A DNA stretch of 35,110 bases, from contig JAIECF010000032.1 in the NCBI GenBank assembly GCA_029068655.1, positions 1-35,110 on the forward strand. The letters run 5' to 3'. The first letter of the stretch is position 1. Every line of letters begins with the position of its first letter. The notes under the pieces were generated by a model. The model worked only from the letters and a program-made list of their open reading frames with translations, searched no databases and was not told the origin of the DNA. The stretch comes from Muribaculaceae bacterium. Its GTDB lineage: Bacteria > Bacteroidota > Bacteroidia > Bacteroidales > Muribaculaceae. Positions 3,001 to 29,943 of this stretch are shown in pieces. Both the position numbers and the translations under genes were made by a program.

Positions 3001-3510
3001 AGCGCGACACGTCCGGGAGCTTTGAATGATAGGATCTATGATGATCTTTATGAAGTCTATATAGAGGATATTCATGGTCTTGGTGTAAAGGATTATTTCG
3101 ATAGAACCAATCCTGCGGCTCTTCAGGAGATGACCGCTACTATGATGGAAAGTGCCAGAAAAGGTTTCTGGAATCCTACGGATAATCAGTTGAGTGCAAT
3201 AGCCAGCCTTCATGCTGATGTGACTGAGGAACATGGTGCCCCGTGTACGGAATTCGTATGTGGTAACAGAAAGCTTCAAGACTACATTTCGTCTCGACTG
3301 GACGGAAAGGATGCTGAAAGATACCAAACGAAGATCGCAGAGGCAGTCGCAGAGACTTCGGGTTCTAAGCTGCTGAAGGCTGAATCAAAGGGATTCCTGT
3401 CTGATAAGGTCAATGAAACCAATGCTGATTATATTGCGGTGGTTATTGTGGCGGTATTGCTGATAATCGTGTTTGGGGCAATAACTATAAGGAGAAAGAA
3501 GAGTAAATGA
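1..3510 (+). CDS. CobN/HmuS-like chelatase, membrane-anchored (5' partial)
   Basis: Large subunit of the CobN/BchH chelatase family. The frame is open to base 1, so the N-terminus lies upstream; about 1169 residues are visible and family members usually have 1250-1450. The first in-window ATG is at 43 but is probably internal. The family core is clear around 1230-1300: HFGTHGNLEFTPGKNAGLS. The protein ends in a single hydrophobic segment (about 3420-3490) followed by RRKKSK, which predicts a C-terminal anchor with the bulk outside the cytoplasm. The next three genes (small membrane protein, ExbB-like, DUF2149) match the hmuS-hmuT-hmuU-hmuV order known from Porphyromonas and Bacteroides, where HmuS acts on haem. 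No CobS/CobT chelatase ATPase subunits are nearby. Whether this copy handles cobalt/corrinoid or haem cannot be told from sequence; the adjoining cobalamin operon favours corrinoid or cobalt. Its stop overlaps the next start as ATGA. Confidence 0.88.
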   Translation, partial: QLYFSNPCRENYRNMLRYVRSISTPGRFGDMEYSEPIAMPSNMYYHLEAGKYFDKAVQLTEYLKKKGLYSPSGKNVAFVSGVNFPVENNRAHIDTLVTRLTQDGYNVYPLTATGKARESMIKDVMPNAIIYLPMGRLGNDSLINWAYDNKIPLFMPYPLIQSREEWLDINNPMGGGTLNARIVVPEIDGGMTPLCISTQDPSPEGYLLYNPDKERMNAFITQFERFMNLREQSNSEKKVAIGYFKSPGKDALLASGMEVVPSLYNFLKRLKKEGYNVQGLPSTLDEFKRQIITKGSVMGDYAPAAQKKFMDEADPLWINKVEYEKWAKEILLPEKYAEVEKRYGKAPGSLLARGDSIAVAALRYGNVMLFPQPRPALGNDDFKLVHGVDVVPPHSYLSPYLYMQKEFDADALIHFGTHGNLEFTPGKNAGLSQAAWAEVLVGNRPHFYFYTTGNVGEAIIAKRRSHAVIVTHLTPPYVESGLRQKYNALIENIHAAIADPSRNSTSLKRQIISLGFHRDLKLDSTFSGTYTIEDLKRIDSFVEELANEKITGAYYVMGEPYSSEDMTTSVLAITADRLAYGRAKKDFEKGKISKESLQDFTFISHHYLPEARKHLSQVLAGNIPESRNDDDALEVRRLLKASAGAEIDAMVNALNGIPVRPAPGGDPVLNSNVLPMGRNMYSINAEATPGPQAWEKGTALAEQTLSDYLKKHGEYPKKVSYTFWAGEFISSQGATVAQALRMLGVEPIRDEQGRVMDLRLIPSEELGRPRINILVQVSGQLRDIASSRLKMITDAVKLASDAKDDLYPNYVADGSIEQEKALIDKGESPKRARELSRMRVFGPVNSGYSTGMLRYTENSGEWDDRSELADGYLNNMCAMYGDDENWGTINKNALESGISGTDIIVQPRQSNTWGPISLDHVYEFTGALSLAAKILGGKEPDAVMADYRNSYIPRLQDTKEAIAVETRATILNPDFIKERMKGDATTAQMFGEIFRNIFGWSATRPGALNDRIYDDLYEVYIEDIHGLGVKDYFDRTNPAALQEMTATMMESARKGFWNPTDNQLSAIASLHADVTEEHGAPCTEFVCGNRKLQDYISSRLDGKDAERYQTKIAEAVAETSGSKLLKAESKGFLSDKVNETNADYIAVVIVAVLLIIVFGAITIRRKKSK

Positions 3511-4007
3511 TGTGGTTTAAGATGATTTTCTTTACAATAATAGCATTGGCGGCGATTGTGAGAATATCCATTCTTCACAAAAGAGCATGGATCCCGATTG
3601 TAGTGTGTTGGGGTATTTTAGCTATGTCTCTGACCCTTTATATGAGTGGATTGACCACGGATGAAATCAACGGGATGCTATTCTCAAAGACGCTTGTGGT
3701 GTGTGAATTTATAGAATTACTGTTGTTTGTTTTGATTGTGTTTTCGTCTGGAACAGCCGGCAGGATTATCGGGTATTATCCCGGAATAATGATATTGGCT
3801 CCGATAGCATTGCTGTCATCGGTTGGCTCGCGGTCTTTCCCGGGATTGGATTTCATGATTCCGGGGCTGATTGCCGGAGTGTCGGTATGTCTGGTTTCTG
3901 CATCCCTCGTATTATTATGCCGTTTTCAGCGGTTTGGAAAAGGAAGTCTCTATAATGTCTCTCTATTGGGAATCTTGACATGTATAATTTATTATGGAAT
4001 GCCATGA
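3507..4007 (+). CDS. HmuT-like small multi-pass membrane protein
   Basis: A 166-residue hydrophobic protein with about five predicted transmembrane segments and no catalytic motif that I recognise. It starts at an ATG overlapping the chelatase stop (ATGA at 3507) and ends overlapping the next start in the same way, so it is very probably translationally coupled to both. By position it corresponds to the membrane protein called HmuT in the Porphyromonas hmu operon; that assignment rests on gene order rather than on a motif. It is likely an inner-membrane partner of the chelatase and the ExbB-like protein. Confidence 0.7.
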   Translation: MMWFKMIFFTIIALAAIVRISILHKRAWIPIVVCWGILAMSLTLYMSGLTTDEINGMLFSKTLVVCEFIELLLFVLIVFSSGTAGRIIGYYPGIMILAPIALLSSVGSRSFPGLDFMIPGLIAGVSVCLVSASLVLLCRFQRFGKGSLYNVSLLGILTCIIYYGMP

Positions 4008-4594
4008 AGATAATTTCCGAAATACTCTTTACAGTCTCCAACGGGCTTTTGATTCCTGTAGTCCTGCTTTTGCTCTCTCTCTTAGCCCGGGCAATATGGA
4101 TTCTTGCAGGATTATATGGCGATGTTAAGCTTCACCGCCGGGTGTCGTCAGTGATTAAGGACACCGTTAGGAACTATTCTTATGAAAGGCTTCAATGCAC
4201 TCTCGGCAATCTAAAAGAAATGAAAGGCTGCATGGTCACCGAATATTTAGCAAGAATTATGGATCATAAGGACGATCACGCCTATTGCGAACACGAACTG
4301 GCGGATTTTCAGGTAGACGTGCAGAAAATTCTGGTAAAATACCGGATGCTGATAAAGTTCGGGCCTATGCTTGGACTCATGGGTACCCTCATACCTATGG
4401 GGCCGGCGCTGGTCGGACTCGCTGTAGGTGACATATCTTCGATGGCATACAACATGCAGGTCGCGTTTGCCACTACCGTCATCGGGATGCTTGAGGCCGG
4501 CATAGGATTATGTGCCTTGCAGCTCAATCAAAGGTTTTATGCCGGATGCCTGAACGATTTAGAATTTATAATAGCTAAAATTACTGACAGATGA
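4004..4594 (+). CDS. MotA/TolQ/ExbB-family proton channel (HmuU-like)
   Basis: A 196-residue protein with an N-terminal membrane segment, a polar cytoplasmic stretch, and two C-terminal membrane segments. The second half carries the typical TolQ/ExbB pattern GPMLGLMGTLIPMGPAL, followed by AFATTVIGMLEAGIG. The family forms the proton-driven stator that energises outer-membrane transport or periplasmic machines. The ATG at 4004 is chosen because it overlaps the previous stop (ATGA), the pattern used throughout this operon; an upstream ATG at 3980 would add eight residues. Together with the DUF2149 protein it probably forms a dedicated ExbB/ExbD-like pair for the CobN/HmuS-like protein. Confidence 0.85.
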   Translation: MKIISEILFTVSNGLLIPVVLLLLSLLARAIWILAGLYGDVKLHRRVSSVIKDTVRNYSYERLQCTLGNLKEMKGCMVTEYLARIMDHKDDHAYCEHELADFQVDVQKILVKYRMLIKFGPMLGLMGTLIPMGPALVGLAVGDISSMAYNMQVAFATTVIGMLEAGIGLCALQLNQRFYAGCLNDLEFIIAKITDR

Positions 4595-4920
4595 AACAGA
4601 ATCCGATTCTTAGTAACGATGGCGATGACGACCCGATGGGTATGCTCACCAATCTGTTTGATGTCGCTATGGTATTTGCCGTCGCCCTTATGGTGGCGTT
4701 GGTGAGCCATTTCAGTATGAGCGAGATTTTCTCAAAGGATGATTTCACTATCGTCAAGAATCCCGGTGCTGAGAATATGGAAATAATCACCAAGGAGGGT
4801 GATGAGATAAAGAAATACTCCTCTTCTGACGATGATTCTTCCTCTTCAGGGTCCAAGGGAAGGAAAGTGGGGACTGCGTATCAACTTGAGAATGGAGAAA
4901 TAATATACATACCTGAATAA
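4591..4920 (+). CDS. DUF2149 protein (HmuV-like, ExbD-like topology)
   Basis: A 109-residue protein matching the DUF2149 pattern: an N-terminal DDDPMGMLTNLFDVAMVF stretch leading into one transmembrane helix, then a periplasmic-facing tail. The single N-terminal helix plus periplasmic domain resembles ExbD/TolR, and the gene follows an ExbB-like gene directly (ATGA overlap at 4591). A serine- and aspartate-rich low-complexity segment (about residues 70-87) lies before a short conserved C-terminus. In hmu operons the equivalent gene is hmuV. Its role as the proton-channel partner is inferred from topology and gene order. Confidence 0.82.
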   Translation: MKQNPILSNDGDDDPMGMLTNLFDVAMVFAVALMVALVSHFSMSEIFSKDDFTIVKNPGAENMEIITKEGDEIKKYSSSDDDSSSSGSKGRKVGTAYQLENGEIIYIPE

Positions 4921-6078: not shown

Positions 6079-7109
6079 GCAGAAGCAGTACGATTATATT
6101 GATGGGGTTGTTGGGAATCTCGATCGCAGGATTCTTTATACTGAATCTTCTTTTAGGCTCGGTCCATATTCCTGTCGATGAAATCATGGGGATTCTTTCA
6201 GGTCGGGATAATGGCAATGTGATATGGACGAACATCATACTTAAGTCAAGATTGCCCCAGTCTCTTACGGCGATGATGGCTGGAGCGGGACTTGCCGTCA
6301 GCGGCTTGCTTATGCAGACGGTTTTCCGCAATCCACTTGCCGGACCTTCGGTACTCGGCATAAGTTCCGGTGCAAGTCTTGGCGTGGCATGTGTGGTCCT
6401 CCTGTCCGGAAGCATTGGGGGAGTGGCCCTGAGTAAGCTTGGAGTAATCGGAGAGGTTACCATCACGCTGTCTGCGATTGTCGGATCATTGCTCATCATG
6501 GCGCTTATAGCTTTCGTAGCCCAGAAGGTAAGAGGTAACGTCACTCTCCTCATAATGGGAGTCATGATAGGATATATCGCCAACGCCATCATCGGTGTGC
6601 TCAAGTTTTTCAGTGCGGAGGAGGATATCAGGGCATACGTGATATGGGGGCTTGGAAGTTTCTCAAGAGTTTCCGGAGGTCAGACATCGGTATTTATCCT
6701 ATTGATGGTTGTCCTTCTGCCGGTTTCCTTTTTTCTGATAAAGACCCTCAATCTTCTTCTTTTAGGAGATTCATATGCAAAAAATCTGGGATTGAACATC
6801 AAGAGGGCGAGGCTGCTGGTAATCGGTTGTTCCGGTGTGCTTGTAGCTGTGGTTACGGCTTATTGCGGTCCCGTTGTCTTCCTCGGGCTTGCAGTTCCAC
6901 ATATATGCAGAGGGCTTTTTCATACCTCTAATCATGCTGTGATACTCCCCGCCTCGCTTTTAGGAGGCGCTTCGCTTGCGTTGCTGTGCAACCTCATAGC
7001 GAGGATGCCCGGTTTCGAGGGGGCCTTACCGGTTAATTCTGTAACGGCGCTTGTGGGAGCTCCCGTGGTGATGTGGGTGTTGTTCAACAAACGTAAAAAC
7101 GATGTGTGA
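6075..7109 (+). CDS. ABC transporter permease, BtuC/FecCD family
   Basis: A 344-residue, roughly ten-helix permease of the BtuC/FecCD family. Family signatures visible: SRLPQSLTAMMAGAGLAVSGL followed by MQTVFRNPLAGPSVLGISSGAS near residues 60-100, and GPVVFLGLAVPHICR near residue 275, which contacts the ATPase. It overlaps the binding-protein stop by ATGA and its own stop overlaps the ATPase start. It imports iron-chelate, haem or corrinoid substrates delivered by the upstream lipoprotein. Motifs make the family assignment firm; the substrate comes from context only. Confidence 0.92.
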   Translation: MSRSSTIILMGLLGISIAGFFILNLLLGSVHIPVDEIMGILSGRDNGNVIWTNIILKSRLPQSLTAMMAGAGLAVSGLLMQTVFRNPLAGPSVLGISSGASLGVACVVLLSGSIGGVALSKLGVIGEVTITLSAIVGSLLIMALIAFVAQKVRGNVTLLIMGVMIGYIANAIIGVLKFFSAEEDIRAYVIWGLGSFSRVSGGQTSVFILLMVVLLPVSFFLIKTLNLLLLGDSYAKNLGLNIKRARLLVIGCSGVLVAVVTAYCGPVVFLGLAVPHICRGLFHTSNHAVILPASLLGGASLALLCNLIARMPGFEGALPVNSVTALVGAPVVMWVLFNKRKNDV

Positions 7110-8104
7110 TGAGAAGGAATGAAACCATAAGGGTTACAGGTCTGGATACCGGATACTCAGACAGGAAGCATACGACGGTCATTACACATGACATCAACGC
7201 CTCGTTGTATTCAAGGGAACTTACCTGTCTCTTAGGACCCAACGGAGCGGGAAAGTCAACACTCCTTAAGACTCTGACAGCATTTCTGCCTCCTTTGAAA
7301 GGTGATATAATGATTGAGGGCAGACTGTTGAATACCTATTCAGAATCCGAACTGGCTAAGGTGATCGGCGTGGTTCTTACCGAACGCCTTAACATCAACA
7401 ATATGTCGGTCGATGAGCTTGTGGGTATGGGACGCAGCCCATATACAGGTTTCTGGGGACACATGTCTGCTGATGACAGGCGTATAGTGGAAGAATCTAT
7501 CGCTTTGGTGGGAATAGAAGGCCTTCGAGGACGTATGGTGCAGACTCTCAGTGACGGTGAGCGTCAGAAAGTGATGATTGCCAAGGCTCTTGCACAGGAG
7601 ACACCGTTGATTTTCCTTGATGAGCCAACCGCCTTTCTTGACTATCCCAGCAAGGTCGAGATCATGCAGCTGCTCCAGACACTTTCCCGCGAGCGGAACA
7701 AGACGGTTTTCCTTTCCACTCACGACCTTGAGCTTGCACTTCAGATCGCAGACAAGGTATGGCTTCTTGACAAGCCTCATGGTGTGACTATCGGCACTCC
7801 GGAGGATCTTGCCCTGAAGGGTGAAATGACAAAATATTTTCATAGGGATGGTGTGACTTTCGATATAGAGAGCGGCCTGTTCAAGATCGACCATAGACTG
7901 ACTGATTCGATTACTCTCGAGGGTAAGGGCCCGGTTGCTAATATGGTAAGGAAGGCACTGGCCCGTCACGGCATTTCGACGGATGCTGAAGTCAATAACA
8001 ACAGGATATATGCGGATGAATCAGGAATTAGCCTGAATGGTGACAGTTATCCGGATATAGACTCTCTTCTTGATGCTGTGGATCTTCTATTCGATCGCAG
8101 ATAA
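7109..8104 (+). CDS. ABC transporter ATPase, BtuD/FecE family, with C-terminal extension
   Basis: ATP-binding subunit of the importer. Walker A GPNGAGKST, signature LSDGERQK, Walker B LIFLDEPTAFLD and the switch histidine in STHD are all present. The ATG at 7109 overlaps the permease stop as TGATG; a GTG at 7106 is an alternative. At about 331 residues it is longer than the usual 250-260. The last ~90 residues (from about 240) form a separate domain with GKGPVANMVRKALARHGIST; I know similar tails from other Bacteroidota iron/B12 ATPases but not their function. It may be a regulatory or ligand-sensing module. The stop is 5 bases before the next gene. Confidence 0.92.
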   Translation: MRRNETIRVTGLDTGYSDRKHTTVITHDINASLYSRELTCLLGPNGAGKSTLLKTLTAFLPPLKGDIMIEGRLLNTYSESELAKVIGVVLTERLNINNMSVDELVGMGRSPYTGFWGHMSADDRRIVEESIALVGIEGLRGRMVQTLSDGERQKVMIAKALAQETPLIFLDEPTAFLDYPSKVEIMQLLQTLSRERNKTVFLSTHDLELALQIADKVWLLDKPHGVTIGTPEDLALKGEMTKYFHRDGVTFDIESGLFKIDHRLTDSITLEGKGPVANMVRKALARHGISTDAEVNNNRIYADESGISLNGDSYPDIDSLLDAVDLLFDRR

Positions 8105-8109
8105 GGTGA

Positions 8110-9171
8110 ATGGCGATGAAGAAACTTTTGATAATAATAGATGGGATGGATGATGAACCTTCCGCAGTCCTCGGGGGTAGAACTCCGAGGGAGAGTGCCT
8201 TCATGCCGGGACTTGACATTATGCGGAATAAGGGTCGTACACGAATGATGACTACAGTTCCGTATGGCAACACACCATCGTCAGAGACTGCTATACTCAA
8301 TATACTTGGCAATGATGTAGAGCCCGCTTTTTCCGGTCGTTCGTGGCTCGAGGCGATCGGTTCCGGAGTTGAGGTTTCACCGGGTGATTTATGTTTGCGA
8401 TGTAACCTGATCAGGACTGAAGATAATGTCATAGTTTCGCATTGTTGCGAGAATCTTTTAGATGAAGAAGCCAAGGAGATTATAGAGCGGCTTAACGGGT
8501 TTTTGGACAGTGAAAGGATCTCTTTCCATTTCGGTAAAGGCTATAGAAATATGCTCGTCATAAAAGATTGTAGGGCTGATGTAATTGCTGACCCGGTTCA
8601 TGAATTGATTGGATGCGACGTATCGGCACTTGACATGAAAAGTAAGGATCCGGATCTTAAGGATTTGCTCAACTCCATTATGCACCGATCAAGGGAGATT
8701 CTTTATAAATCCGGTAAAAGAGTAAACGGGATTGCTTTATGGGCACCGGGACGTAAGCCGTCCATGAAATTCAATCAACTGCGGGGAGCTGTGGTTGCCG
8801 GTACAAATCTGGTAAAAGGAATAGGAAAGGTATGCGGGATGAGGATTATCGATGTCATCGGAGCTACGGGTGACCGTAATACCGATTATTCAGGGAAATG
8901 TGAAGCCGCTTTAGCGGCACTCGAAGATAATGATTTCGTTCTGCTTCATATTGAGGCTGCAGACGAGGCCTCCCATCGGAGAGATCCGTGGCTGAAAGTG
9001 GAGATACTTGAAGAGATTGACAGGCAAATTATTTCCCCGATCCTGAAATGCGGCAGGGAGTTGGAAATAGTGGTGCAGTCCGACCATGCCACATCGTCTG
9101 TCACAGGACGGCATCTTGATCAACCGGTAGAAGTGATAACATATGTATTGACTATAGCAAATGAAAGCTAA
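8110..9171 (+). CDS. ApgM-family phosphoglycerate-mutase-like protein in a cobalamin operon
   Basis: A 353-residue member of the alkaline-phosphatase superfamily, closest in pattern to archaeal-type cofactor-independent phosphoglycerate mutase (ApgM), a family that also contains proposed homoserine kinases. Metal-site motifs: IIIDGMDDE (D11), PSSETAILNILGND with probable nucleophile S58, HIEAADEASHRRD, and QSDHAT. The middle section GAVVAGTNLVKGIGKVCGM and GATGDRNTDYSGK are typical of the family. The gene sits between the importer and cbiHC and overlaps the latter by 11 bases. Glycolysis is an unlikely role here. An attractive inference is that it makes threonine phosphate (PduX/BluE function) for the CobD-like decarboxylase at 18605, since no PduX-type kinase is visible. 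An alternative ATG at 8116 is possible. Confidence 0.8.
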   Translation: MAMKKLLIIIDGMDDEPSAVLGGRTPRESAFMPGLDIMRNKGRTRMMTTVPYGNTPSSETAILNILGNDVEPAFSGRSWLEAIGSGVEVSPGDLCLRCNLIRTEDNVIVSHCCENLLDEEAKEIIERLNGFLDSERISFHFGKGYRNMLVIKDCRADVIADPVHELIGCDVSALDMKSKDPDLKDLLNSIMHRSREILYKSGKRVNGIALWAPGRKPSMKFNQLRGAVVAGTNLVKGIGKVCGMRIIDVIGATGDRNTDYSGKCEAALAALEDNDFVLLHIEAADEASHRRDPWLKVEILEEIDRQIISPILKCGRELEIVVQSDHATSSVTGRHLDQPVEVITYVLTIANES

Positions 9172-10564
9172 GATAACAGTGATAGGTATCGGCCCCGGCC
9201 ATCCGGGAGACATGACATCTCAAGCTATAGATGCTTTACGCGACGCAGAAATAATAATTGGGTATAAATACTATATCCCTTTTATATTACACCTTTTGAA
9301 GGAAAGTGTTGAAATCATTCAAAATGGAATGCGTCAGGAGCAGGCGCGTATAGAAAAAGCGTTTGAGATTGCAGAAAACGGACATGATGTGTGCGTAATC
9401 AGTTCCGGGGATGCCGGTATATACGGGATGGCTCCTCTCGTGTATGAGATGCTGAGGGAGCGCGGTTCGGAAATTGAGGTAGAGGTTATACCCGGAATCA
9501 GCGCCTTCCAGAAGGCTGCATCATTATTGGGTGCCCCGGTCGGGCATGATTTCTGTGTCATCTCGCTCAGCGACCTTATGACTCCATGGATGGTGATTGA
9601 GAAGCGTATCAAGGCGGCAGCTGAGGCCGACTTTGTGACTGCAGTCTATAATCCCAAGAGTCATGGCAGATATTGGGAGCTGTATCGGTTGAAAGAATTA
9701 TTTCTTAAATACAGAGATTCGGACACACCGGTAGGATATGTGCGTCAGGCAGGAAGAGAGGAGCAGAAAGTCACAGTAACAACATTAGGATCTTTTGATC
9801 CCGAAGATGTGGATATGTTTACGGTTGTCATTATAGGTAATTCTCAAACCTATAGGTTTGAAGAGCATATGGTGACACCAAGAGGATACTTTGGGGTGGA
9901 AACACATGAGGATACAGGGATCGGACAGTCGATAATGATCGAGAGTTTCCGGACTATTGAGCGGGAACTGGCAGATCCGGATATCCCGCTTGGCAGGAAA
10001 TGGCCTCTTCTGCATGCCATACATACCACTGCTGATTTCGATATGGAGAATATCGTAAAGGTTGATGAAGGATCGGTAGAAAAGATTTATAATGCATTTT
10101 CTTCGGGAGACGTGAAAACCATAATCACTGATGTGACTATGGCGGCTTCGGGAATAAGAAAAGGGGCGTTGGAGCGTCTCGGAATCTCGGTGAAATGTTA
10201 TTTGTCTGATCCGAGGGCCTTGGATCTTGCAAAAAAGGCGAATATTACCAGGACTCAGGCAGGAATACGTCTGGCTGTTTCTGAATATCCGGATGCCCTT
10301 TACGTATTCGGTAATGCTCCGACAGCTCTTATGGAACTATGCACACTGATACGCTCCGGTAAAGCAAGACCATGTGGCATCATCGCAGCTCCTGTCGGTT
10401 TCGTGCATGTATGCGAAAGCAAGCACATGGTGAAGCCCTTCAAGAATATTCCTAAAATAATAGTCGAGGGTCGAAAAGGTGGAAGCAATCTCGCTGCAAC
10501 CCTTGTTAACTCCATACTCTGCTGGCCCGATGCGGAGCAATTAAGACCCGGAAGAGATGTCTGA
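9161..10564 (+). CDS. cbiHC: CbiH-CbiC fusion: C17-methyltransferase / precorrin-8 methylmutase
   Basis: A 467-residue bifunctional enzyme. Residues 1-245 are a tetrapyrrole methylase of the CbiH/CobJ type, with SAM-loop GIGPGHPGDMT at 9-19 and the ring-contraction pattern SSGDAGIYGMAPLVYE; it methylates C17 and contracts the ring of cobalt-factor III. Residues from about 255 are CbiC/CobH, with HAIHTTADFDM, which carries the catalytic histidine region, and APVGFVHVCESKHMV; it moves the C11 methyl to C12 to give cobyrinate. Both halves look full length. It overlaps the upstream gene by 11 bases and the downstream gene by 8. The two activities are not consecutive in the pathway, so the fusion is not simple channelling. 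Confidence 0.93.
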   Translation: MKAKITVIGIGPGHPGDMTSQAIDALRDAEIIIGYKYYIPFILHLLKESVEIIQNGMRQEQARIEKAFEIAENGHDVCVISSGDAGIYGMAPLVYEMLRERGSEIEVEVIPGISAFQKAASLLGAPVGHDFCVISLSDLMTPWMVIEKRIKAAAEADFVTAVYNPKSHGRYWELYRLKELFLKYRDSDTPVGYVRQAGREEQKVTVTTLGSFDPEDVDMFTVVIIGNSQTYRFEEHMVTPRGYFGVETHEDTGIGQSIMIESFRTIERELADPDIPLGRKWPLLHAIHTTADFDMENIVKVDEGSVEKIYNAFSSGDVKTIITDVTMAASGIRKGALERLGISVKCYLSDPRALDLAKKANITRTQAGIRLAVSEYPDALYVFGNAPTALMELCTLIRSGKARPCGIIAAPVGFVHVCESKHMVKPFKNIPKIIVEGRKGGSNLAATLVNSILCWPDAEQLRPGRDV

Positions 10565-16577: not shown

Positions 16578-17146
16578 ACAGGATATACACAAGGACAGGT
16601 GATAAAGGTACTACTGCTATTCATGGCGGATTGAGGGTGCCTAAAACCGATATACGCATAGAGGCTAATGGCACTCTCGACGAGCTGAACGTGGCAGTGG
16701 GTGCTTTACGTACATCGTTAGCTTCTGATCATATGTGGCAGCCTAAGCTACGTGAAATACAGCTCAATCTAATGACCCTGATGAGTCTTGTAGCTACACT
16801 GAACGAACAGCGCCCGAATAATCCTAATCAGCTTCCGGATAATCTGGTAGGTGAACTGGAACGTTGGATTGACGATATCAATTCGCAATGTACCCCTCCC
16901 GACAGTTTCATCCTGCCGGGAGGAACACGATTGTCTACCGTGATGCAACAGGCGAGAGTGACTGCAAGAAGGGCGGAGCGGAATCTATGGCATCTTAATG
17001 ATCTGGATACGGTGCCTGAGAATATTCTTCAGTACGTCAACCGTCTGTCTGACCTTTTCTTCATTATGGCACGCTATGAACTTCAGCATTCCGGATGCAA
17101 GGAGGAAGTATGGCGTGAATTTGGATATAAACGAAAGCTAAAATGA
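16574..17146 (+). CDS. PduO-type ATP:cob(I)alamin adenosyltransferase
   Basis: A 190-residue PduO/MMAB-family enzyme: N-terminal YTRTGDKGTTAIHGG with the ATP-binding residues, central NGTLDELNVAVGALR, and C-terminal VTARRAERNLWHL and NRLSDLFFIMARY segments. It transfers the adenosyl group of ATP to the reduced Co(I) corrinoid, between CbiA and CbiP in the pathway, which matches its position between those genes. The ATG at 16574 overlaps the cbiA stop by ATGA; an in-frame TTG nine bases earlier is unlikely. It needs a Co(II) reductase, which has no obvious gene here apart from the PepSY-TM candidate at 23347. Confidence 0.93.
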   Translation: MNRIYTRTGDKGTTAIHGGLRVPKTDIRIEANGTLDELNVAVGALRTSLASDHMWQPKLREIQLNLMTLMSLVATLNEQRPNNPNQLPDNLVGELERWIDDINSQCTPPDSFILPGGTRLSTVMQQARVTARRAERNLWHLNDLDTVPENILQYVNRLSDLFFIMARYELQHSGCKEEVWREFGYKRKLK

Positions 17147-18612
17147 AACGACTGTCACCTATAATGTTGGCCGGTACAGGAAGCGATGTTGGTAAAAGCC
17201 TCATCGCAACCGGACTGTGTCGTATCTTTCTTCAGGACGGATATTCTCCGGCTCCTTTCAAGGCCCAGAATATGGCGCTCAATTCCTATGCCACTACCGA
17301 TGGGCTGGAAATAGGCAGGGCTCAGGCGGTTCAGGCGGAGGCTGCAGGTATTCCTTGTTCTTCCGACATGAATCCGATTCTTTTGAAACCATCCGGTGAG
17401 CATACATCGCAAGTCGTGCTGAATGGAAAACCCTCCGGCAATCGAGATGCATATTCCTATTTCCGCAAGGATGGGAAAGAGGAACTGCGCAGATTGGCCC
17501 ATGAGGCGTTCGACAGGCTTTCATCCCGTTATAATCCAATTGTGCTTGAAGGAGCAGGCAGTATTTCCGAATTGAATCTGCGTGACGGGGATATAGTCAA
17601 CATGTCTATGGCCCGTTATGCCGGCGCTGATGTTATTTTAGTTGCCGATATCGACAGGGGTGGGGTTTTCGCAAGCGTATACGGATCGGTCATGCTCCAG
17701 ACACCGGAAGACCGTAAACGTATCAAAGGGATAATCATTAACAAGTTCAGAGGAGATTTGAGGTTGTTTGAGAGTGGTAGGCAGTTGTTAGAGGATTTGT
17801 GTGGTATTCCCGTCCTTGGTGTCGTACCGATGGCTAAACATATAAAGATCGAGGAAGAGGATTCGGTATCCCTTGAGAATAAAAACAGAGCAATAATTGG
17901 AGATAAGGTAAAGGTAGGAGTCGTGACATTACCGCATATTTCCAATTTCACTGATTTTAATGTTCTGGAGCGTCATCCCGAGGTAAATCTCTTCTATATT
18001 ACTGTTCCCGAAGATGTAGATGAAGCCGACATCATCATAATTCCGGGAAGTAAGAATACACTTTCTGATCTCAATTATCTTCGCAAGAAAGGTTTCGTAG
18101 GGCGGATAATCCGTGCGCGAGGTGCGGGAAAGAGTGTAATCGGAATTTGCGGAGGATATCAGATGATGGGAAGGATGATATCCGATCCTGATGGTGTAGA
18201 GGGGGATATCCTGGAGATGCCGGGACTGGGATTGCTCCCTGTCTCCACAGTTCTCACCCGCACAAAGACTACAAGACAGGTTCAATTCCATTTTCTTGAT
18301 TCGGAAGAAATCTGCGAGGGTTATGAAATCCATATGGGGCATACTGAATCAAAATATCCTTTGACGAGGAATACGAAAGGGGGCCAAGACGGATGTTTCG
18401 TAGATGAGTGGTGTTTCGGGTCCTATATACATGGAATCCTTGATAACCCTGCGGTATTGGATTATATTTTAGCACCATATAGGACCCGGAACTCTATGTC
18501 TGATTTTGATTATCACTCGTTCAAGGAGTCGCAGTATGATGCATTGGCTGAATGGCTCAGGGTATATGTTGATATTGACAGGCTTTATAAAATAATGACG
18601 AATCATGATTGA
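17143..18612 (+). CDS. cbiP: Adenosylcobyric acid synthase
   Basis: A 489-residue CbiP/CobQ enzyme that amidates the b, d, e and g side chains. Seen: P-loop AGTGSDVGKS (residues 10-19), PFKAQNMALNSY, the glutaminase nucleophile C336 in GICGGYQMMG, and catalytic His430 in GSYIHGILD. Length is normal for the family. It starts inside an ATGA overlap with the adenosyltransferase and overlaps the CobD-like gene by 8 bases. Confidence 0.95.
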   Translation: MKRLSPIMLAGTGSDVGKSLIATGLCRIFLQDGYSPAPFKAQNMALNSYATTDGLEIGRAQAVQAEAAGIPCSSDMNPILLKPSGEHTSQVVLNGKPSGNRDAYSYFRKDGKEELRRLAHEAFDRLSSRYNPIVLEGAGSISELNLRDGDIVNMSMARYAGADVILVADIDRGGVFASVYGSVMLQTPEDRKRIKGIIINKFRGDLRLFESGRQLLEDLCGIPVLGVVPMAKHIKIEEEDSVSLENKNRAIIGDKVKVGVVTLPHISNFTDFNVLERHPEVNLFYITVPEDVDEADIIIIPGSKNTLSDLNYLRKKGFVGRIIRARGAGKSVIGICGGYQMMGRMISDPDGVEGDILEMPGLGLLPVSTVLTRTKTTRQVQFHFLDSEEICEGYEIHMGHTESKYPLTRNTKGGQDGCFVDEWCFGSYIHGILDNPAVLDYILAPYRTRNSMSDFDYHSFKESQYDALAEWLRVYVDIDRLYKIMTNHD

Positions 18613-19630
18613 CGGACATGGTGATGATCTTTTCCGTTATAATGGAAAGGTTAAGGTGAATTTCAGCACCAATATCCATCAAGGTGTTGATCATTCAGGA
18701 TTGATGAGGCATCTTGCCTCTTGTCGGGAACTTCTGTCTAATTATCCTGAGCCGGAACCGGTCAGCGTGGAAAAGAAGCTGAGTGATACCTATGGGTTTC
18801 CGGTCGATAATATTATAGTTACAAATGGAGCGACAGATGCAATCTATCTTATAGCCCGTAAGATGCAAGGAGCAAGATCTGCCGTTGTAGTTCCTACATT
18901 TCGTGAATATCAGGATGCATGCGCTATGTTCGGACATGATGTCCGGTTCATTCGGGAATCAGCCATTTTGGAAGGAGCTCTTTCTGCCTGTAAAGCAGAT
19001 GTGGTGTGGCTCTGCAATCCCAATAATCCTACGGGACAGGTCTTTGTTCATGAGGAACTTCTCAAGATCATTGACGCCAGGCCCGAAACGCTGTATGTAA
19101 TCGATCAGGCCTATGCCGATTATTCGGTTGTTGATGTTGTTACAGTTCAGGATATATTATCACGAAAAAACGTTATTATGCTTCAATCGCTCACCAAGCA
19201 GTTTGCGGTTCCGGGACTTCGTATAGGTTATGCGTTAGCCTCGGCAGATATAATATCCGGACTCCGTATGATGCGTATGCCATGGTCGGTGAATTCTTTT
19301 GCGATCGAGGCATCTCTTTATCTTTTAGAGCATAGGAATGACTATCATATTGATAGATATTTGCTGCATAAAGAAGCATTAGGCATATCTCAGGCTTTAC
19401 GATGTCTTGGTATTGAATGTCGGGAGACGGACTGTAATTTTATCCTTTGCAGCTTGCCTGAAGGAAAGGCGTCTGAGCTGAAGGAGTGGCTTATGGAAAT
19501 GTATGGTCTGCTTATCAGGGATGCTTCTAATTTCGAGACCCTGGATCATACATATTTTCGCGTAGCTGCTCAGGATCATGAGAGTAATGAACTGCTTATA
19601 AAATGTATTGAGGAATGGGTATCATTGTAA
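18605..19630 (+). CDS. cobD: CobD-like L-threonine-O-3-phosphate decarboxylase
   Basis: A 341-residue fold-type I PLP enzyme. Seen: NFSTN near the start, TNGATDAIYL, CNPNNPTG (137-144), DQAYADY, and the PLP lysine K198 in SLTKQFAVPGLRIGYA. The N-terminal GHGDDLFRYNG and the cobalamin context separate it from histidinol-phosphate aminotransferase. It makes (R)-1-amino-2-propanol phosphate, the arm that CbiB joins to cobyric acid. The next gene, cbiB, starts 16 bases before its stop. The threonine phosphate substrate requires a kinase; the ApgM-like gene at 8110 is a candidate. Confidence 0.88.
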   Translation: MIDGHGDDLFRYNGKVKVNFSTNIHQGVDHSGLMRHLASCRELLSNYPEPEPVSVEKKLSDTYGFPVDNIIVTNGATDAIYLIARKMQGARSAVVVPTFREYQDACAMFGHDVRFIRESAILEGALSACKADVVWLCNPNNPTGQVFVHEELLKIIDARPETLYVIDQAYADYSVVDVVTVQDILSRKNVIMLQSLTKQFAVPGLRIGYALASADIISGLRMMRMPWSVNSFAIEASLYLLEHRNDYHIDRYLLHKEALGISQALRCLGIECRETDCNFILCSLPEGKASELKEWLMEMYGLLIRDASNFETLDHTYFRVAAQDHESNELLIKCIEEWVSL

Positions 19631-20571
19631 ATCTCTCTCCGTTGCTTATAGGTTGGATTCTCGACCTTATGTTTGGGGATCCTGCCAGGTTGCCACATCC
19701 TGTAGTGTGGTTTGGAAAGACTATAACAAGATTGGAGCATCTTCTCAATAAGGGGTCAAATAGAAAGATCAAGGGTGCTTTGGTGTCTGTCTTTCTTATC
19801 TTTGGCACGTTTGCAGTGACGTGGCTGTTCTTGAATCTAATTTCATCAGTATGGTGGCTTGATATTGCGGTGCAGTCGATATTGGTATTTTACTGTCTTG
19901 CCGGTACGACGCTCATTCGCGAAGTTAGAATGACCTTCGCTGCGGTTGATGAGTCCCTGGAATCAGGACGTAGGCAGGTCGGAAGGATAGTAGGCCGTGA
20001 TACGTCAGGACTTTCAGCGCAGGAGATCCGTACCGCGGCGCTTGAGACTTTGGCGGAGAATCTCAGCGACGGAGTAATCGCTCCGCTTTTCTGGTATGCC
20101 GTTTTGGGGGTGCCGGGCATGATGGCCTATAAAATGGTTAATACTCTTGACTCCATGATCGGATATCGAAACTCCAGATATAAGGATTTCGGTTGTGTTG
20201 CAGCACGTATCGACGATGTGGCCAACTATATTCCGGCAAGGTTGACGGCTTTTCTGATGGTTATGGTATCCGGTAGGTTGAGCCTGTTGCGGTTCGTCGG
20301 AAAATATGGAAGTCAACATCTAAGTCCTAACAGCGGCTATCCGGAGGCTGCTTTGGCCGGCATTCTTGACTGCCGTTTCGGAGGTCCCCACGATTACTTC
20401 GGTGAAAATGTTGACAAACCCTTCATTGGAGAACGCCCCAGGGATTTCATCTCTAATGACGTAACAAAAGCTATCTGTATAAACCGCAGAACCGAAATTA
20501 TTACTATATTATTGACCGTCGGTGTCAGATTGTCAGTTCTATTACTGAGCCGAATGGTGGAATATTTCTGA
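19615..20571 (+). CDS. cbiB: Adenosylcobinamide-phosphate synthase
   Basis: A 318-residue membrane protein of the CbiB/CobD family. It carries LDLMFGDPARLPHPVVWFGK at the N-terminus, NLSDGVIAPLFWY, MVNTLDSMIGYRN and NSGYPEAALAGILDCRFGG, all family signatures, plus four to five hydrophobic segments. It condenses cobyric acid with aminopropanol phosphate at the inner membrane. It is the last gene of the + strand operon. Its final 47 bases overlap the 3' end of the - strand cobC gene, with no room for a conventional terminator between the two operons. Confidence 0.94.
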   Translation: MGIIVNLSPLLIGWILDLMFGDPARLPHPVVWFGKTITRLEHLLNKGSNRKIKGALVSVFLIFGTFAVTWLFLNLISSVWWLDIAVQSILVFYCLAGTTLIREVRMTFAAVDESLESGRRQVGRIVGRDTSGLSAQEIRTAALETLAENLSDGVIAPLFWYAVLGVPGMMAYKMVNTLDSMIGYRNSRYKDFGCVAARIDDVANYIPARLTAFLMVMVSGRLSLLRFVGKYGSQHLSPNSGYPEAALAGILDCRFGGPHDYFGENVDKPFIGERPRDFISNDVTKAICINRRTEIITILLTVGVRLSVLLLSRMVEYF

Positions 20572-21058
20572 ATAGGGAATTGTAATCCCTGCCTGAAAAG
20601 ATGTTGAGGGCGTGCACGAGGATACCTCCGTGAGTGAATACCGCTACGTTGGCGGCTTGTGGAGTTTCGCTTCGTAAGGAATCCATGAAGTCAATGAAGC
20701 GGCTTCTTTGCTGCATCGCTGATTCTCCTCCTGTCGGCGCGACGTTCATATAGTCGTCAAACCATTCCTGAAGCCGTGGATCCTTTATCTCATTGAAGTC
20801 GTGCATCTCCCATTCTCCGAAATTCATTTCCATAATTCGGGGATCAGGTATGGCATCAGGGAATCCGCAAAATGAGGCGAGTTCCCGGCATCGGCTCAGT
20901 GGACTGGTGAAGACTTTGTCAAAAGAACCGGATCCTAATCTTTCGGCTACTTTCTCTGCTTCCTGTGGAAATGTATCAGCCAATTCCACATCGGTCTGTC
21001 CGTAGCACATCCCTCGTGGCACAGCTACGGATGTATGTCGTATAAGCGTTATCTTCAT
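20525..21058 (-). CDS. cobC: CobC-like alpha-ribazole-5'-phosphate phosphatase
   Basis: A 177-residue histidine phosphatase. The phosphohistidine motif is LIRHTSVAVPRGMCYGQTDV at residues 5-24, a variant RHT typical of CobC rather than the RHG of glycolytic mutases. EMNFGEWEMHDF and FTHGG supply the other catalytic residues. The start at 21058 overlaps the cobS stop by ATGA; the open frame extends 25 codons further upstream but lies inside cobS. It dephosphorylates alpha-ribazole phosphate or adenosylcobalamin phosphate. Last gene of the riboswitch-controlled - strand operon. Confidence 0.9.
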   Translation of the reverse strand: MKITLIRHTSVAVPRGMCYGQTDVELADTFPQEAEKVAERLGSGSFDKVFTSPLSRCRELASFCGFPDAIPDPRIMEMNFGEWEMHDFNEIKDPRLQEWFDDYMNVAPTGGESAMQQRSRFIDFMDSLRSETPQAANVAVFTHGGILVHALNIFSGRDYNSLFRNIPPFGSVIELTI

Positions 21059-21813
21059 AGAGCTTGAATATTGTAAATCATTGCTGTCGCGGCAAGCATA
21101 GAGAGCTCGCACAGCAGACAGGCTGCACCGCAACAGTCTCCGGTATATCCCCCGATTTTATGCCGCATATATAATATCAACAATCCTATGACTAAAATAG
21201 GCGCGAATATCGACATTATCAAGCATACATCAAGGTATGCCAATAGACATACTGGCAACAGTCCAGATAATATCACGATCAATAGCTGCCAAATCGTCAT
21301 TCGGTCATAACTGATTTTGTTTTTGGCTCCTTCCGGTCTGGCATAGGGTAGAATGTTTACGAGCTGGGCAGCACAGGCTTTGGAAAAGGCGTCAGAGGCA
21401 AATACGCCGGCGACAGCTATTTCTAGAGGAAGAGAATCGACTGTCGAAACATACCAAAGATAGTAGAATATCAATCCGATCACGCCATATGTCCCGATGT
21501 GGGAATCCTTCATTATTGCGAGAATGCGATCCTTGGTGGTTCCTCCTCCGAATCCGTCGCAGAAGTCAGCGAGTCCGTCTTCATGCAGCGCACCGGTAAG
21601 AAGAGTCCTGCCTGTAAGAGCGATGATGACAGCCGTCAACATCGGAAAGACTTGGGCAGTAAGCCATAATAGTGAGGCTGTGATGCCCCCTGTCACCCAT
21701 CCGGTCAATGGCCAGTAGACCACTACCGATGAATAGTTTTTCTGAGGGATCTCAGTCCATTTCCATATAGGTATGCGCGTAAAGAAGGTCAGTGCAGCTG
21801 CTATTCGTTTCAT
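21055..21813 (-). CDS. cobS: Cobalamin synthase (adenosylcobinamide-GDP ribazoletransferase)
   Basis: A 252-residue polytopic membrane protein. Typical start [15 protein letters not shown], then YWPLTGWVTGG, the metal-binding ALHEDGLADFCDGFGGG with acidic residues, KDSHIGTYGVIGL, and KIGGYTGDCCGAACLLCE near the C-terminus. It joins adenosylcobinamide-GDP with alpha-ribazole (phosphate). The ATG at 21813 overlaps the cobT stop (ATGA); the longer open frame to 21900 is not needed. This is the cobalamin-synthesis CobS, unrelated to the CobS chelatase subunit. Confidence 0.95.
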   Translation of the reverse strand: MKRIAAALTFFTRIPIWKWTEIPQKNYSSVVVYWPLTGWVTGGITASLLWLTAQVFPMLTAVIIALTGRTLLTGALHEDGLADFCDGFGGGTTKDRILAIMKDSHIGTYGVIGLIFYYLWYVSTVDSLPLEIAVAGVFASDAFSKACAAQLVNILPYARPEGAKNKISYDRMTIWQLLIVILSGLLPVCLLAYLDVCLIMSIFAPILVIGLLILYMRHKIGGYTGDCCGAACLLCELSMLAATAMIYNIQAL

Positions 21814-24420: not shown

Positions 24421-24469
24421 ATAACTAATTATTTTGTTCCAGAAATAATCCTTTAGTCACATTATAACC

Positions 24470-24640
24470 GAGGCAGGTTTCCTGACTTACTCCATCTCTG
24501 TCCGGCCTTCCCTCCTTGTCGGAAGTGACCCTTATGTGGGCAGAGATTGCGTGGAGATCACAGTAGCTGGAACTGTACCGGAATCACACCGGTTTCCCTC
24601 AAGCCGACAATAATATTTGTCGGTTCACCTGATTATGAGG
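24470..24640 (-). promoter_or_regulatory. Cobalamin (B12) riboswitch
   Basis: Reading the - strand from about 24640 down to 24470 gives the AdoCbl aptamer landmarks in order: GAGGGAAACCGGTGTGATTCC (the GGGAA...GGTG...TCC core), CCGGTACAGTTCCAGC followed by TACTGTGATC (the GC-rich core with ACTGTGA), and the B12 box AGTCAGGAAACCTGCCT at 24488-24472. The 5' CAGGT near 24630 can pair with ACCTG of the B12 box to form P1. It lies 50 bases upstream of the PepSY gene and is expected to switch off PepSY-cobUTSC when cobalamin is plentiful. Exact ends are approximate. Confidence 0.93.
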
Positions 24641-24648
24641 CAAAATTA
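24641..24648 (-). promoter_or_regulatory. Candidate -7 promoter box for the riboswitch transcript
   Basis: TAATTTTG on the - strand fits the Bacteroidota -7 consensus TAnnTTTG and sits immediately upstream of the riboswitch aptamer, so transcription would begin at the aptamer's 5' edge. No good -33 TTG was found at the usual spacing. Confidence 0.5.
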
Positions 24649-27945: not shown

Positions 27946-27993
27946 CTTTGGTCAGCCTTCAGATGCTGCTTGGGGTGTTCTATATTTAGTAAG

Positions 27994-28881
27994 ATGTTAA
28001 GTGAACCGCAAGCAAAATATTTAGCCCATTGGCTTACCCGGAGTTTGCCTTCAGACAATCTCGGAAAACTTACTGCGTCCTTACAGGATGCGCAGGTTGA
28101 CTTGACACCCCATCAGATTGACGCTGCTCTTTTTGCATTCAAATCCCCACTCTCAAAAGGTGCGATACTTGCAGATGAAGTAGGTCTTGGAAAGACAATC
28201 GAAGCTGGAATCATATTATCCCAATTTTGGGCAGAACATCGTCGGCATCTTCTCATAATCGCTCCAGCTAATCTCCGTAAGCAATGGGCTGCAGAATTAC
28301 AGGAAAAATTCTATTTGCCATCCCGGATACTTGAATCCAAGATTTTCAATGGATATATCAAGCAAGGAAATCTCAATCCTTTCAATTGTGAGGAGATAGT
28401 GATTTGCTCATATCAGTTTGCAGAATTGGGAGCGCCAAAGAAAGCACTTATTTTCACTGAAAGTCGCCAGACACAGGATTTTCTTTTCGAGCTTCTGGAA
28501 AAGAGAGGGTATAAGGGAAAGGTAGTTCTTTTCAATGGATCCAATTCCGACAAACTGTCTACTTACATTTACAAAGCCTGGAAGGAGAAGTATAAAGGAA
28601 CGACTAAAGTGACAGGTTCTGCTACCGCTGACAAACGTGCGGCGTTGGTAGACTATTTTCGTGAGGAAGCCACAATCATGATTGCCACAGAGGCTACTGC
28701 GGAAGGAATAAACCTTCAGTTTTGCTCGCTTGTGGTAAACTACGATATGCCTTGGAATCCTCAGCGCATAGACATCATCACCTTCCCGGAAATCGAAGAT
28801 GAGGAAGAATCGGAGGATTCCGATTTGAATGGAGCGGAGAACCTGTTTAATGATGAAGAACCTAATCTTTTCAATCAATGA
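27994..28881 (+). pseudogene. SNF2-type DEAD/DEAH helicase with large internal deletions
   Basis: An open frame of 295 residues from the ATG at 27994 (the open frame reaches to a TTG at 27970). N-terminal helicase parts are present: LTPHQIDAALFAF, Walker A ILADEVGLGKTIEAG and LLIIAPANLRKQW. At VICSYQFA the text jumps straight to ELGAPKKALIFTESRQTQ, which begins the C-terminal helicase lobe in intact relatives; the DEAH box and several hundred residues between are missing. A second jump follows NYDMPWNPQRI, where the arginine-finger motif (QRIGRCHRYGQ in relatives) is absent and an acidic tail ends the protein. It can hardly be an active ATPase. Both junctions are in frame, so an expressed mini-protein cannot be excluded. 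Its stop overlaps the DUF1016 start (ATGA). Confidence 0.8.
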
Positions 28882-29942
28882 GCGGCAGAGTGATTTTAGA
28901 CGAAGAATATAAGGAATGGATAGGTCAGTTATCCATTCAATACCGCAATGCTCAGATAAAAGCGGCAGTAGCGGTCAATACAGAAATGCTTCAATTCTAT
29001 TGGGAACTGGGTCGAGGCATAGAATCCATGCAGTCTGATAATAAATATGGCAGTAGATTTTTCGATACATTGAGTCGCGATTTGAAAGCAGCTATTCCGG
29101 AGGCCAAAGGATTTTCAAGCCGGAATTTACAAGCAATTAAAAAGTTTTATCTGATGTACTCGAAGATTTTGCCACAAGTAGCGGCAGAATCTCCATCATC
29201 AAATCTGCCACAAGTTGTGGCAGATTTGTTCCGAATTCCATGGGGACATCATAGATTGCTTATGGATAAATTTTTCAGTGAGCCGGAGACAGCTTTGTTC
29301 TATGTTAAGGAAACAGTGAAACATGGATGGTCGCGCGCAATGTTAGACCACATGCTTGACATGAAGTTGCATCTCCGTCAAGGGAAGGCCGTCACTAATT
29401 TCAAAGAGCAGCTTCCTGAAATCACAAGCGAGTTGGCACAGGAGATGACTAAAGATCCATATATATTTGATTTCACTAATCTAACAGTGCCTTATAAGGA
29501 AAGAGAACTGAAAGAGGAACTACTGAAAAACATTACGAAATTTCTACTTGAACTTGGAGAAGGTTTTGCTTTTGTAGGTCAGGAATATAAACTTAATGTG
29601 GGACAGACAGAACAATTCACCGATCTTCTTTTTTATCATCTGAAACTTCGTTGCTATATAGTAATCGAATTGAAAGTGACAAAATTTGAACCCGGCTATA
29701 TCGGGCAGCTCGGTATGTATGTAACGGCTGTGAACCATATCCTTAGAACGGAACATGACAATCCTACGATCGGACTGTTAATATGCAAGACAAAGGATGA
29801 TGTTTTAGCACAATACTCCCTTGAGGGTTATAATCTGCCGATCGGAGTATCGCAATACCAATTAGAAAAGTTTCTGCCTGATAATTTTAAAAGTGCGTTG
29901 CCTTCTGTTGAAGAAATTGAGGCAAAATTAAAAAATCAATAG
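28878..29942 (+). CDS. DUF1016 (YhcG-like) PD-(D/E)XK nuclease family protein
   Basis: A 354-residue protein with the two-part DUF1016 layout: an N-terminal domain (YRNAQIKAAVAVNTEMLQFYWELGRGI, SRDLKAAIPEAKGFSSRNLQ) likely to bind DNA or partners, and a C-terminal nuclease-like domain with D249 in FTDLLFYH and E264/K266 in VIELKVTKFEPGYIGQLGMYV, a PD-(D/E)XK core. The linker (about 98-120) has a duplicated LPQVVA-type segment encoded by palindromic DNA. Such proteins often accompany restriction-modification genes. Looks intact in length and motifs even though its neighbours are broken. Starts by ATGA overlap with the helicase remnant; the next gene begins 1 base after its stop. Confidence 0.85.
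   Translation: MSGRVILDEEYKEWIGQLSIQYRNAQIKAAVAVNTEMLQFYWELGRGIESMQSDNKYGSRFFDTLSRDLKAAIPEAKGFSSRNLQAIKKFYLMYSKILPQVAAESPSSNLPQVVADLFRIPWGHHRLLMDKFFSEPETALFYVKETVKHGWSRAMLDHMLDMKLHLRQGKAVTNFKEQLPEITSELAQEMTKDPYIFDFTNLTVPYKERELKEELLKNITKFLLELGEGFAFVGQEYKLNVGQTEQFTDLLFYHLKLRCYIVIELKVTKFEPGYIGQLGMYVTAVNHILRTEHDNPTIGLLICKTKDDVLAQYSLEGYNLPIGVSQYQLEKFLPDNFKSALPSVEEIEAKLKNQ
29201..29227. repeat. Perfect palindrome inside the DUF1016 linker
   Basis: AAATCTGCCACAA and its exact reverse complement TTGTGGCAGATTT flank a single G, giving 13-base arms. An imperfect relative (GATTTTGCC ... GGCAGAATC, 29165-29192 region) lies just upstream, so the linker holds two similar inverted repeats in tandem. It encodes NLPQVVADL-type linker residues. 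Confidence 0.85.
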
Positions 29943-29943
29943 G

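Follow-up and report, generated by a model that had tools for sequence, protein, structure and literature searches.

The window, by which we mean the whole stretch of 35,110 nucleotides analysed in this study, carries a closely packed run of plus-strand genes from cobN (position 43) to cbiB (20571), and a gene of the ApgM family lies within this run. What does an ApgM-like protein do among genes for cobalamin synthesis? The initial annotation had suggested that it may be the missing kinase that makes L-threonine phosphate for the CobD-like enzyme, as no PduX or BluE kinase was visible and the phosphatase role was already taken by cobC.

In the window, cobD and cbiB are on the same strand as the ApgM-family gene, and cobC, cobS, cobT and cobU then follow on the opposite strand. 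The CobD-like and CobC-like genes that had been claimed are both present (Table 1). TIGR01140 is the best family match of the CobD-like protein, although the score is below the cut-off; cobS and cobT, like btuD and cbiP, were named from reading of the sequence, without a family scan. The plus-strand run starts at the contig edge, and the riboswitch of the window heads the minus-strand block, not the strand carrying the ApgM-family gene. The interval 3507-4920, between cobN and btuF, contains a gene with no match in Pfam, one that is MotA-like by reading of the sequence, and one of DUF2149 type; these genes are kept in several relatives and may form a unit for the transport of cobalt or corrinoids. 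The region 27970-32648 contains helicase/restriction-like genes that seem broken, as judged from the list of open reading frames without a scan.

Table 1. Features of the cob locus in the window, and HAD-IB proteins of other loci (L numbers)
Feature	Position	Strand	Evidence
BtuD-like ABC ATPase, gene just 5' of ApgM	7106..8104	+	named from sequence reading, without family scan
Candidate L-threonine kinase (CbiU-like), ApgM family, short cob-linked form, 353 aa	8110..9171	+	profiles, alignment, model
IIDGMDDE segment, presumed metal ligand D11	8134..8157	+	D11 invariant 33/33
PSSETAIL segment, presumed nucleophile S58 (S/T in relatives)	8275..8298	+	alignment
AADEASH segment, presumed metal ligands D285 and H289	8956..8976	+	invariant 33/33
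Segment with presumed metal ligands D325, H326, H335	9082..9114	+	invariant 33/33
CbiH-CbiC fusion, gene just 3' of ApgM, 11-base overlap	9161..10564	+	PF00590, PF02570
CbiP, cobyric acid synthase	17143..18612	+	named from sequence reading, without family scan
CobD-like L-threonine-O-3-phosphate decarboxylase, presumed product user	18605..19630	+	TIGR01140 244.7 bits, cut-off 290.55
CbiB, adenosylcobinamide-phosphate synthase	19615..20571	+	TIGR00380 221.6 bits, above cut-off
CobC-like alpha-ribazole phosphatase	20525..21133	-	TIGR03162 162.6 bits, cut-off 162.9
Cobalamin riboswitch 5' of PepSY/cobU/T/S/C block	24454..24647	-	RF00174 80.1 bits, gathering 31.5
Pre-cobU HAD-IB protein (207-225 aa)	L119:14369-14992	-	
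Pre-cobU HAD-IB protein (207-225 aa)	L122:4276-4953	+	
Pre-cobU HAD-IB protein (207-225 aa)	L223:9085-9741	+	

The open reading frame of the ApgM-family gene starts with ATG, lies 5 bases from the end of btuD and overlaps cbiHC by 11 bases, in agreement with the location inside the cob operon given by the initial annotation. The Pfam matches of the protein were PF10143 (114.6 bits) and PF01676 (89.1 bits), both above cut-off, and the GHMP kinase domain, a trait of PduX, is missing. The best NCBIfam subfamily was apgM (TIGR00306, 293.9 bits), under its curated cut-off of 320; the proposed homoserine kinase family TIGR02535 gave 282 bits, under its curated cut-off of 446.3. By these scores, the protein appears to fall outside both named subfamilies.

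The catalytic motifs proved intact, as the initial annotation had stated. That is, D11, D285, H289, D325, H326 and H335, which we take to be metal ligands from knowledge of the iPGM/alkaline phosphatase superfamily, do not vary in any of the 33 aligned relatives. S58 in the PSSETAIL segment, presumably the nucleophile on the same grounds, is occupied by Ser or Thr in the relatives of this 33-sequence alignment. When the gene was compared with its 68%-identical homologue in the genome G524, the dN/dS value was 0.20, indicating that the gene is under purifying selection and is not a chance open reading frame. Of the 11 operon genes compared, the other ten all had lower values (0.056-0.195), and the protein identity of 68% compares with 83-95% for the ten neighbours.

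An AlphaFold2 model built with nine sequences had a mean pLDDT of 92.2 and a pTM of 0.90, and its best PDB match was the archaeal ApgM PH0037 (2zkt_B; TM 0.78, 25% identity). The window protein resembles the archaeal phosphoglycerate mutases (2zkt; 3kd8 and 3idd of T. acidophilum) in fold, presumed metal ligands and nucleophile. In contrast, the DRRAGR segment of these structures is replaced in the window protein and missing in all 33 aligned relatives, and this segment is probably required for phosphoglycerate mutase activity.

Taking together the gene, predicted fold, motifs, linkage and distribution established in this analysis, we consider that the window protein is probably an L-threonine kinase that makes L-threonine O-3-phosphate for CobD; the activity, the substrate and the donor are inferred. 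In the proposed reaction, two metal ions held by the six presumed ligands would activate S58, which would be phosphorylated by a phosphate donor, and the hydroxyl group of L-threonine would then accept the phosphate from S58. CobD would decarboxylate the threonine phosphate to (R)-1-amino-2-propanol O-2-phosphate, which CbiB would join to adenosylcobyric acid. A point against this reaction is that we know of no nucleotide-binding motif for the ApgM fold. PduX is a GHMP kinase, and its fold is unrelated to that of ApgM. The donor might be ATP, or PEP as the TIGRFAM curators suggested for ThrB2, the proposed homoserine kinase of the TIGR02535 type (PMC7311316, accessible portion).

D. restrictus, which belongs to a phylum other than that of the window organism, offers the closest precedent. 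Its TIGR02535-like gene cbiU (Dehre_1608), which lies in an operon with nucleotide-loop genes, was proposed in 2015 to encode an L-threonine kinase, and according to the accessible part of that paper there is no pduX in the Dehalobacter restrictus genome (PMC4285132). The window protein is likewise ApgM/TIGR02535-like, lies in an operon with nucleotide-loop genes and has the same proposed reaction, the comparison being one of descriptions. No pduX was found in the window's own genome (G000, an assembly that is 86% complete) either; the only GHMP matches there are galactokinase and IspE, leaving neither a PduX nor a GHMP-type ThrB candidate among its GHMP kinases and bearing out the absence of PduX noted in the initial annotation. 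The threonine-kinase reading is the best supported of those considered; it is inferred, and it is not a new idea, the window protein being a divergent variant of an already published proposal. L-threonine kinase activity of PduX and BluE has been demonstrated by assay (PMC6249242, available in part), and their likeness to the window protein lies in the proposed product. In the literature accessible to our search, mostly outside subscription journals and partly as incomplete texts, we found no test of the threonine-kinase idea for the ApgM family. Two other candidates from the accessible literature were set aside: CblZ, which can stand in for CobC according to one list (PMC6593275) and hence is by that use no threonine-kinase candidate, and DUF71 of B12 salvage (PMC3541065), which is another family.

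The distribution was surveyed in 397 genomes of the same family. ApgM of any kind occurred in 116 of them; the 84 non-duplicate ApgM rows (family and order) comprised 52 beside thrA/thrC, 13 beside cob genes, 10 short forms and 9 others. Cob-linked ApgM was found in 13 of the 397 genomes (G000, G524, G290, G442, G369, G514, G428, G569, G425, G631, G502, G445 and G609); the copy of G609 is a fragment, the available stretch beginning within apgM. Three gene arrangements cover 12 of the 13: btuD-apgM-cbiHC in seven, with two genes inserted before cbiHC in G569; apgM-cbiP-cobD-cbiB in two (G290, G442); and apgM-cobU-cobT-cobS-cobC in three (G425, G631, G502). On the 4.3-kb contig of G445, apgM points away from cobU, so that operon linkage is not demonstrated in that genome. 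An overlap of apgM with the next gene downstream is seen in the window and also in loci L073, L074, L099 and L102. The same-strand run containing apgM has a cobalamin riboswitch (117 bits) at its head in L004 (1376-1559) and L010 (1398-1582); none reached the gathering threshold in L006, L007, L008, L012, L073, L074, L081, L098, L099 and L102. Twelve records came from a search of plasmids for more remote relatives of the cob-linked kind, taken irrespective of gene surroundings.

Among the 13 genomes with cob-linked ApgM, CobT was found in 12, CobD in 10 and CbiGF in only seven (missing in G442, G425, G290, G631, G445 and G502), which indicates that cob-linked ApgM mostly tracks nucleotide-loop assembly. 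Cob-linked ApgM was present in 10 of 88 CobD-positive genomes compared with 3 of 309 without a CobD match (Fisher p 3e-5, kinship ignored); the contig of G369 breaks inside cbiP. The 88 were counted from 90 matches, those of G415 and G301 (E about 4-6e-31, 29-33% identity) being excluded because they were taken as HisC-like by sequence. CobT was found in 93 of the 397 genomes, and because CobD and CobT co-occur almost everywhere, they are inseparable as partners of ApgM. The initial annotation had proposed a comparison of co-occurrence with cobD and with other cobalamin genes. The association with CobD indeed exceeds that with CbiGF, but it cannot be told apart from that with CobT, and one carrier, G514, has no cobD in its cob locus.

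The 88 CobD-positive genomes comprise 10 with cob-linked ApgM, 27 with thr-type ApgM (above the TIGR00306 cut-off or beside thrA/thrC), two with a stand-alone ApgM (G347 and G396, placed in neither group of the ThrC comparison below) and 49 without ApgM. The counts of ThrC, ApgM by HMM, GHMP and CbiGF refer to 63 genomes, that is, 60 of the 88 CobD-positive genomes and the three cob-linked genomes without a CobD match.

G514 leads to the rival explanation that survives best, namely that the protein serves another cobamide step, as a second alpha-ribazole/adenosylcobalamin phosphatase or as a serine kinase for an ethanolamine-phosphate linker (norcobamide). In this genome (75% complete), apgM and the ring genes are present up to cbiP, where the contig is unbroken, and 3' of cbiP there are only a 93-residue piece of cobU and a PepSY gene (L240:11190-14806); cobD, cbiB, cobC, cobS and cobT were not found in the cob locus between cbiP and the cobU piece. 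The block was either deleted or lost through faulty assembly, and an apgM retained without cobD fits this rival and counts against a threonine kinase. On the other hand, a CobC gene lies near ApgM not only in the window but also in L073, L074, L098, L099 and L102, so that the phosphatase role seems filled, as had been claimed for the window. Serine phosphate, reportedly the substrate in the norcobamide route of S. multivorans, is formed in ordinary serine synthesis as an intermediate, and a serine kinase would therefore be less needed. The accessible part of one paper proposes that a CobD homologue of S. multivorans makes ethanolamine phosphate for norpseudo-B12 (PMC4585668), meaning that CobD need not imply threonine phosphate. 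On balance, we regard a role in another cobamide step as unlikely.

A homoserine kinase of threonine synthesis (ThrB2), present in the cob operon by happenstance, is less likely still. The window protein shares the family and the catalytic residues of ThrB2, as its TIGR02535 match indicates, and is about 35-42% identical to it; this comparison used the sequences of relatives, and BT2402, the ThrB2 of B. thetaiotaomicron, by description. In contrast to the window protein, however, ThrB2 is usually located beside thrA/thrC, has about 400 residues with a C-terminal tail of about 50 residues that is missing from the window protein, and, in the thr-operon homologue of L107, reaches 534 bits, over the TIGR02535 cut-off, which the window protein falls far short of. 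No second ApgM and no ThrC match were found in G000 (86%-complete assembly). ThrC (at least 110 bits) is missing in 11 of the 13 cob-linked genomes, in which no match exceeds 95 bits, and five of the 11 are 91-99% complete (G369, G425, G631, G442, G524); ThrB2 is missing in 12 of the 13, the exception being G609. These absences argue against a role of cob-linked ApgM in threonine synthesis. Matches of up to 95 bits were excluded as probably IlvA-like, and the ThrC proteins of G405, G428 and G445 were counted although they are below the curated cut-off of 167.1. Among CobD-positive genomes, ThrC was present in 2 of 10 with cob-linked ApgM compared with 25 of 27 with thr-type ApgM (kinship ignored). 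In favour of the homoserine kinase, ThrB2 is missing from G428 and G445, which do have thrA-thrC; their sole ApgM is the cob-linked copy, which might also serve threonine synthesis there. Among the matches listed, a third GHMP match was present in the cob-linked G524, G609, G445 and G514, a point against the threonine-kinase reading. According to the accessible text, BT2402 is required for growth of B. thetaiotaomicron without threonine, but an E. coli thrB mutant was not rescued by it (PMC7311316); thus, even the homoserine kinase activity of ThrB2, also discussed in the part available of PMC9026213, remains a proposal.

The weakest rival, a phosphoglycerate mutase or generalist phosphatase placed in the operon by chance with no cobamide role, draws on the best subfamily being apgM and on the archaeal fold, but G000 has a GpmI (one, 670.6 bits), DRRAGR is absent from all aligned relatives and the cob linkage is kept through three arrangements, which makes it very improbable and a phosphoglycerate mutase role unlikely. 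In 59 of the 63 genomes, a second match, a weak one, came from a frame of 503-554 residues, which is the size of GpmI; the identity as GpmI was checked for G000 alone. In the most likely reading, that of an L-threonine kinase, the window protein is a phosphotransferase of the ApgM/ThrB2 group dedicated to this task.

If a threonine kinase is indeed encoded in the cob operon, what phosphorylates threonine in relatives without the gene? In G456 and G599 the cob operon is the same, with CobD 79-81% identical, but apgM is missing from it; ThrB2 is located elsewhere in these genomes. G456 (99% complete; CobD 79% identical) is a natural control for the absence of the cob-linked copy: 70 bases separate btuD from cbiHC with no gene between them, and ThrB2 and ThrC are both found elsewhere in the genome. 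Its GHMP proteins are two among the matches listed, by size like GalK and IspE. The simplest reading would be that ThrB2, where present, covers threonine phosphorylation; that is, in relatives that make threonine and have ThrB2 without a cob-linked copy, ThrB2 may phosphorylate threonine for CobD too. If the threonine-kinase reading is true, a further kinase family is added, and threonine auxotrophy is tied to the position of the kinase gene. G524 and G456 are closely related genomes that differ in the presence of the kinase gene in the cob operon, and this makes the kinase question testable.

The same consideration is not sufficient for all CobD-positive genomes. ApgM is missing in 49 of the 88, namely in all 39 of genus g181 and in 10 of the 49 elsewhere, and a search with the family HMM confirmed the absence in 21 of these genomes; CobD can thus exist without ApgM, which counts against the reading. 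Kinase-less genomes other than the three with a HAD-IB protein described next may rely on serine phosphate and make a norcobamide, as suggested for S. multivorans, or may have another kinase. In three CobD-positive genomes without ApgM (G447, G451, G279), a HAD-IB protein is encoded directly 5' of cobU, its gene abutting cobU or overlapping it by 1-4 bases, and this slot before cobU is the one held by ApgM in G425, G631 and G502. The pre-cobU HAD-IB protein is a possible alternative maker of threonine phosphate. A HAD survey covered 80 genomes (61 CobD-positive, the three cob-linked without a CobD match, and 16 without CobD); HAD matches above 190 bits were found in 9 of 22 CobD-positive genomes without ApgM, 1 of 39 with ApgM and 0 of 16 without CobD. 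Five of these ten (G508, G563, G436, G455, G298) are outside cob loci in the stretches examined. The copy of G338 is nearer to a HAD from outside the cob loci (51%) than to those of cob loci (34-36%), and that of G413 is on the strand opposite cbiB and was not kept as slot-sharing, so that the set kept consists only of G447, G451 and G279. Four HAD proteins fell outside ThrH, scoring 22-34 bits where the cut-offs are 133 and 223.4, and no riboswitch reached the gathering threshold in four HAD-bearing loci. One cob locus encodes a restriction endonuclease of the AccI type and a methylase resembling Eco57I between btuD and cbiP (L119:2402-5247).

We can speculate on a wider scheme, which we consider rather unlikely: ThrB2 of the Bacteroidales would be a dual homoserine/threonine kinase feeding both threonine and cobamide synthesis, lineages that lost threonine synthesis would keep a short divergent copy in the cob operon, and others would fill the pre-cobU slot with an unrelated HAD-IB phosphotransferase. 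Separately, in seven of the CobD-positive genomes without ApgM (L227-L231, L235, L239), thrA-thrC pairs are found with neither a thrB-like gene nor ThrB2 between them or alongside, a possible gap in homoserine kinase; one shared enzyme may account for this gap and the threonine-kinase gap there.

The relationship of the cob-linked copies was examined in trees. The full tree had 84 rows, duplicates and rows of less than 260 residues being excluded, and its 13 cob rows represent 12 of the 13 cob-linked genomes and L009. The cob rows needed four changes in the free 84-row tree and two in a free 44-row tree, both with long branches, and a single clade for the 13 rows was not rejected (AU p 0.594). 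Nine of the 13 form a supported core in both trees; L081, L098, L099 and L102 have long branches and shift position between trees.

The 10 rows of short ApgM forms (about 290 residues, one clade) were set aside as cobamide enzymes, 6 of the 10 carriers having no CobD match. These ApgM-like proteins of 274-300 residues (L087, L088, L089, L090, L091, L092, L093, L094, L096 and L097) form a separate clade and seem to be without most of the middle domain; that of L087 has polysaccharide-export (SLBB/Wzz) genes as neighbours, a further reason for setting them aside. Finally, one cob-linked ApgM (L012:10007-10597; L086:8932-9522), in a cob operon that otherwise looks normal, lacks about 155 internal residues with the frame kept; this could be decay or an effect of assembly, and another cob locus of that genome (L075) encodes a full-length ApgM.
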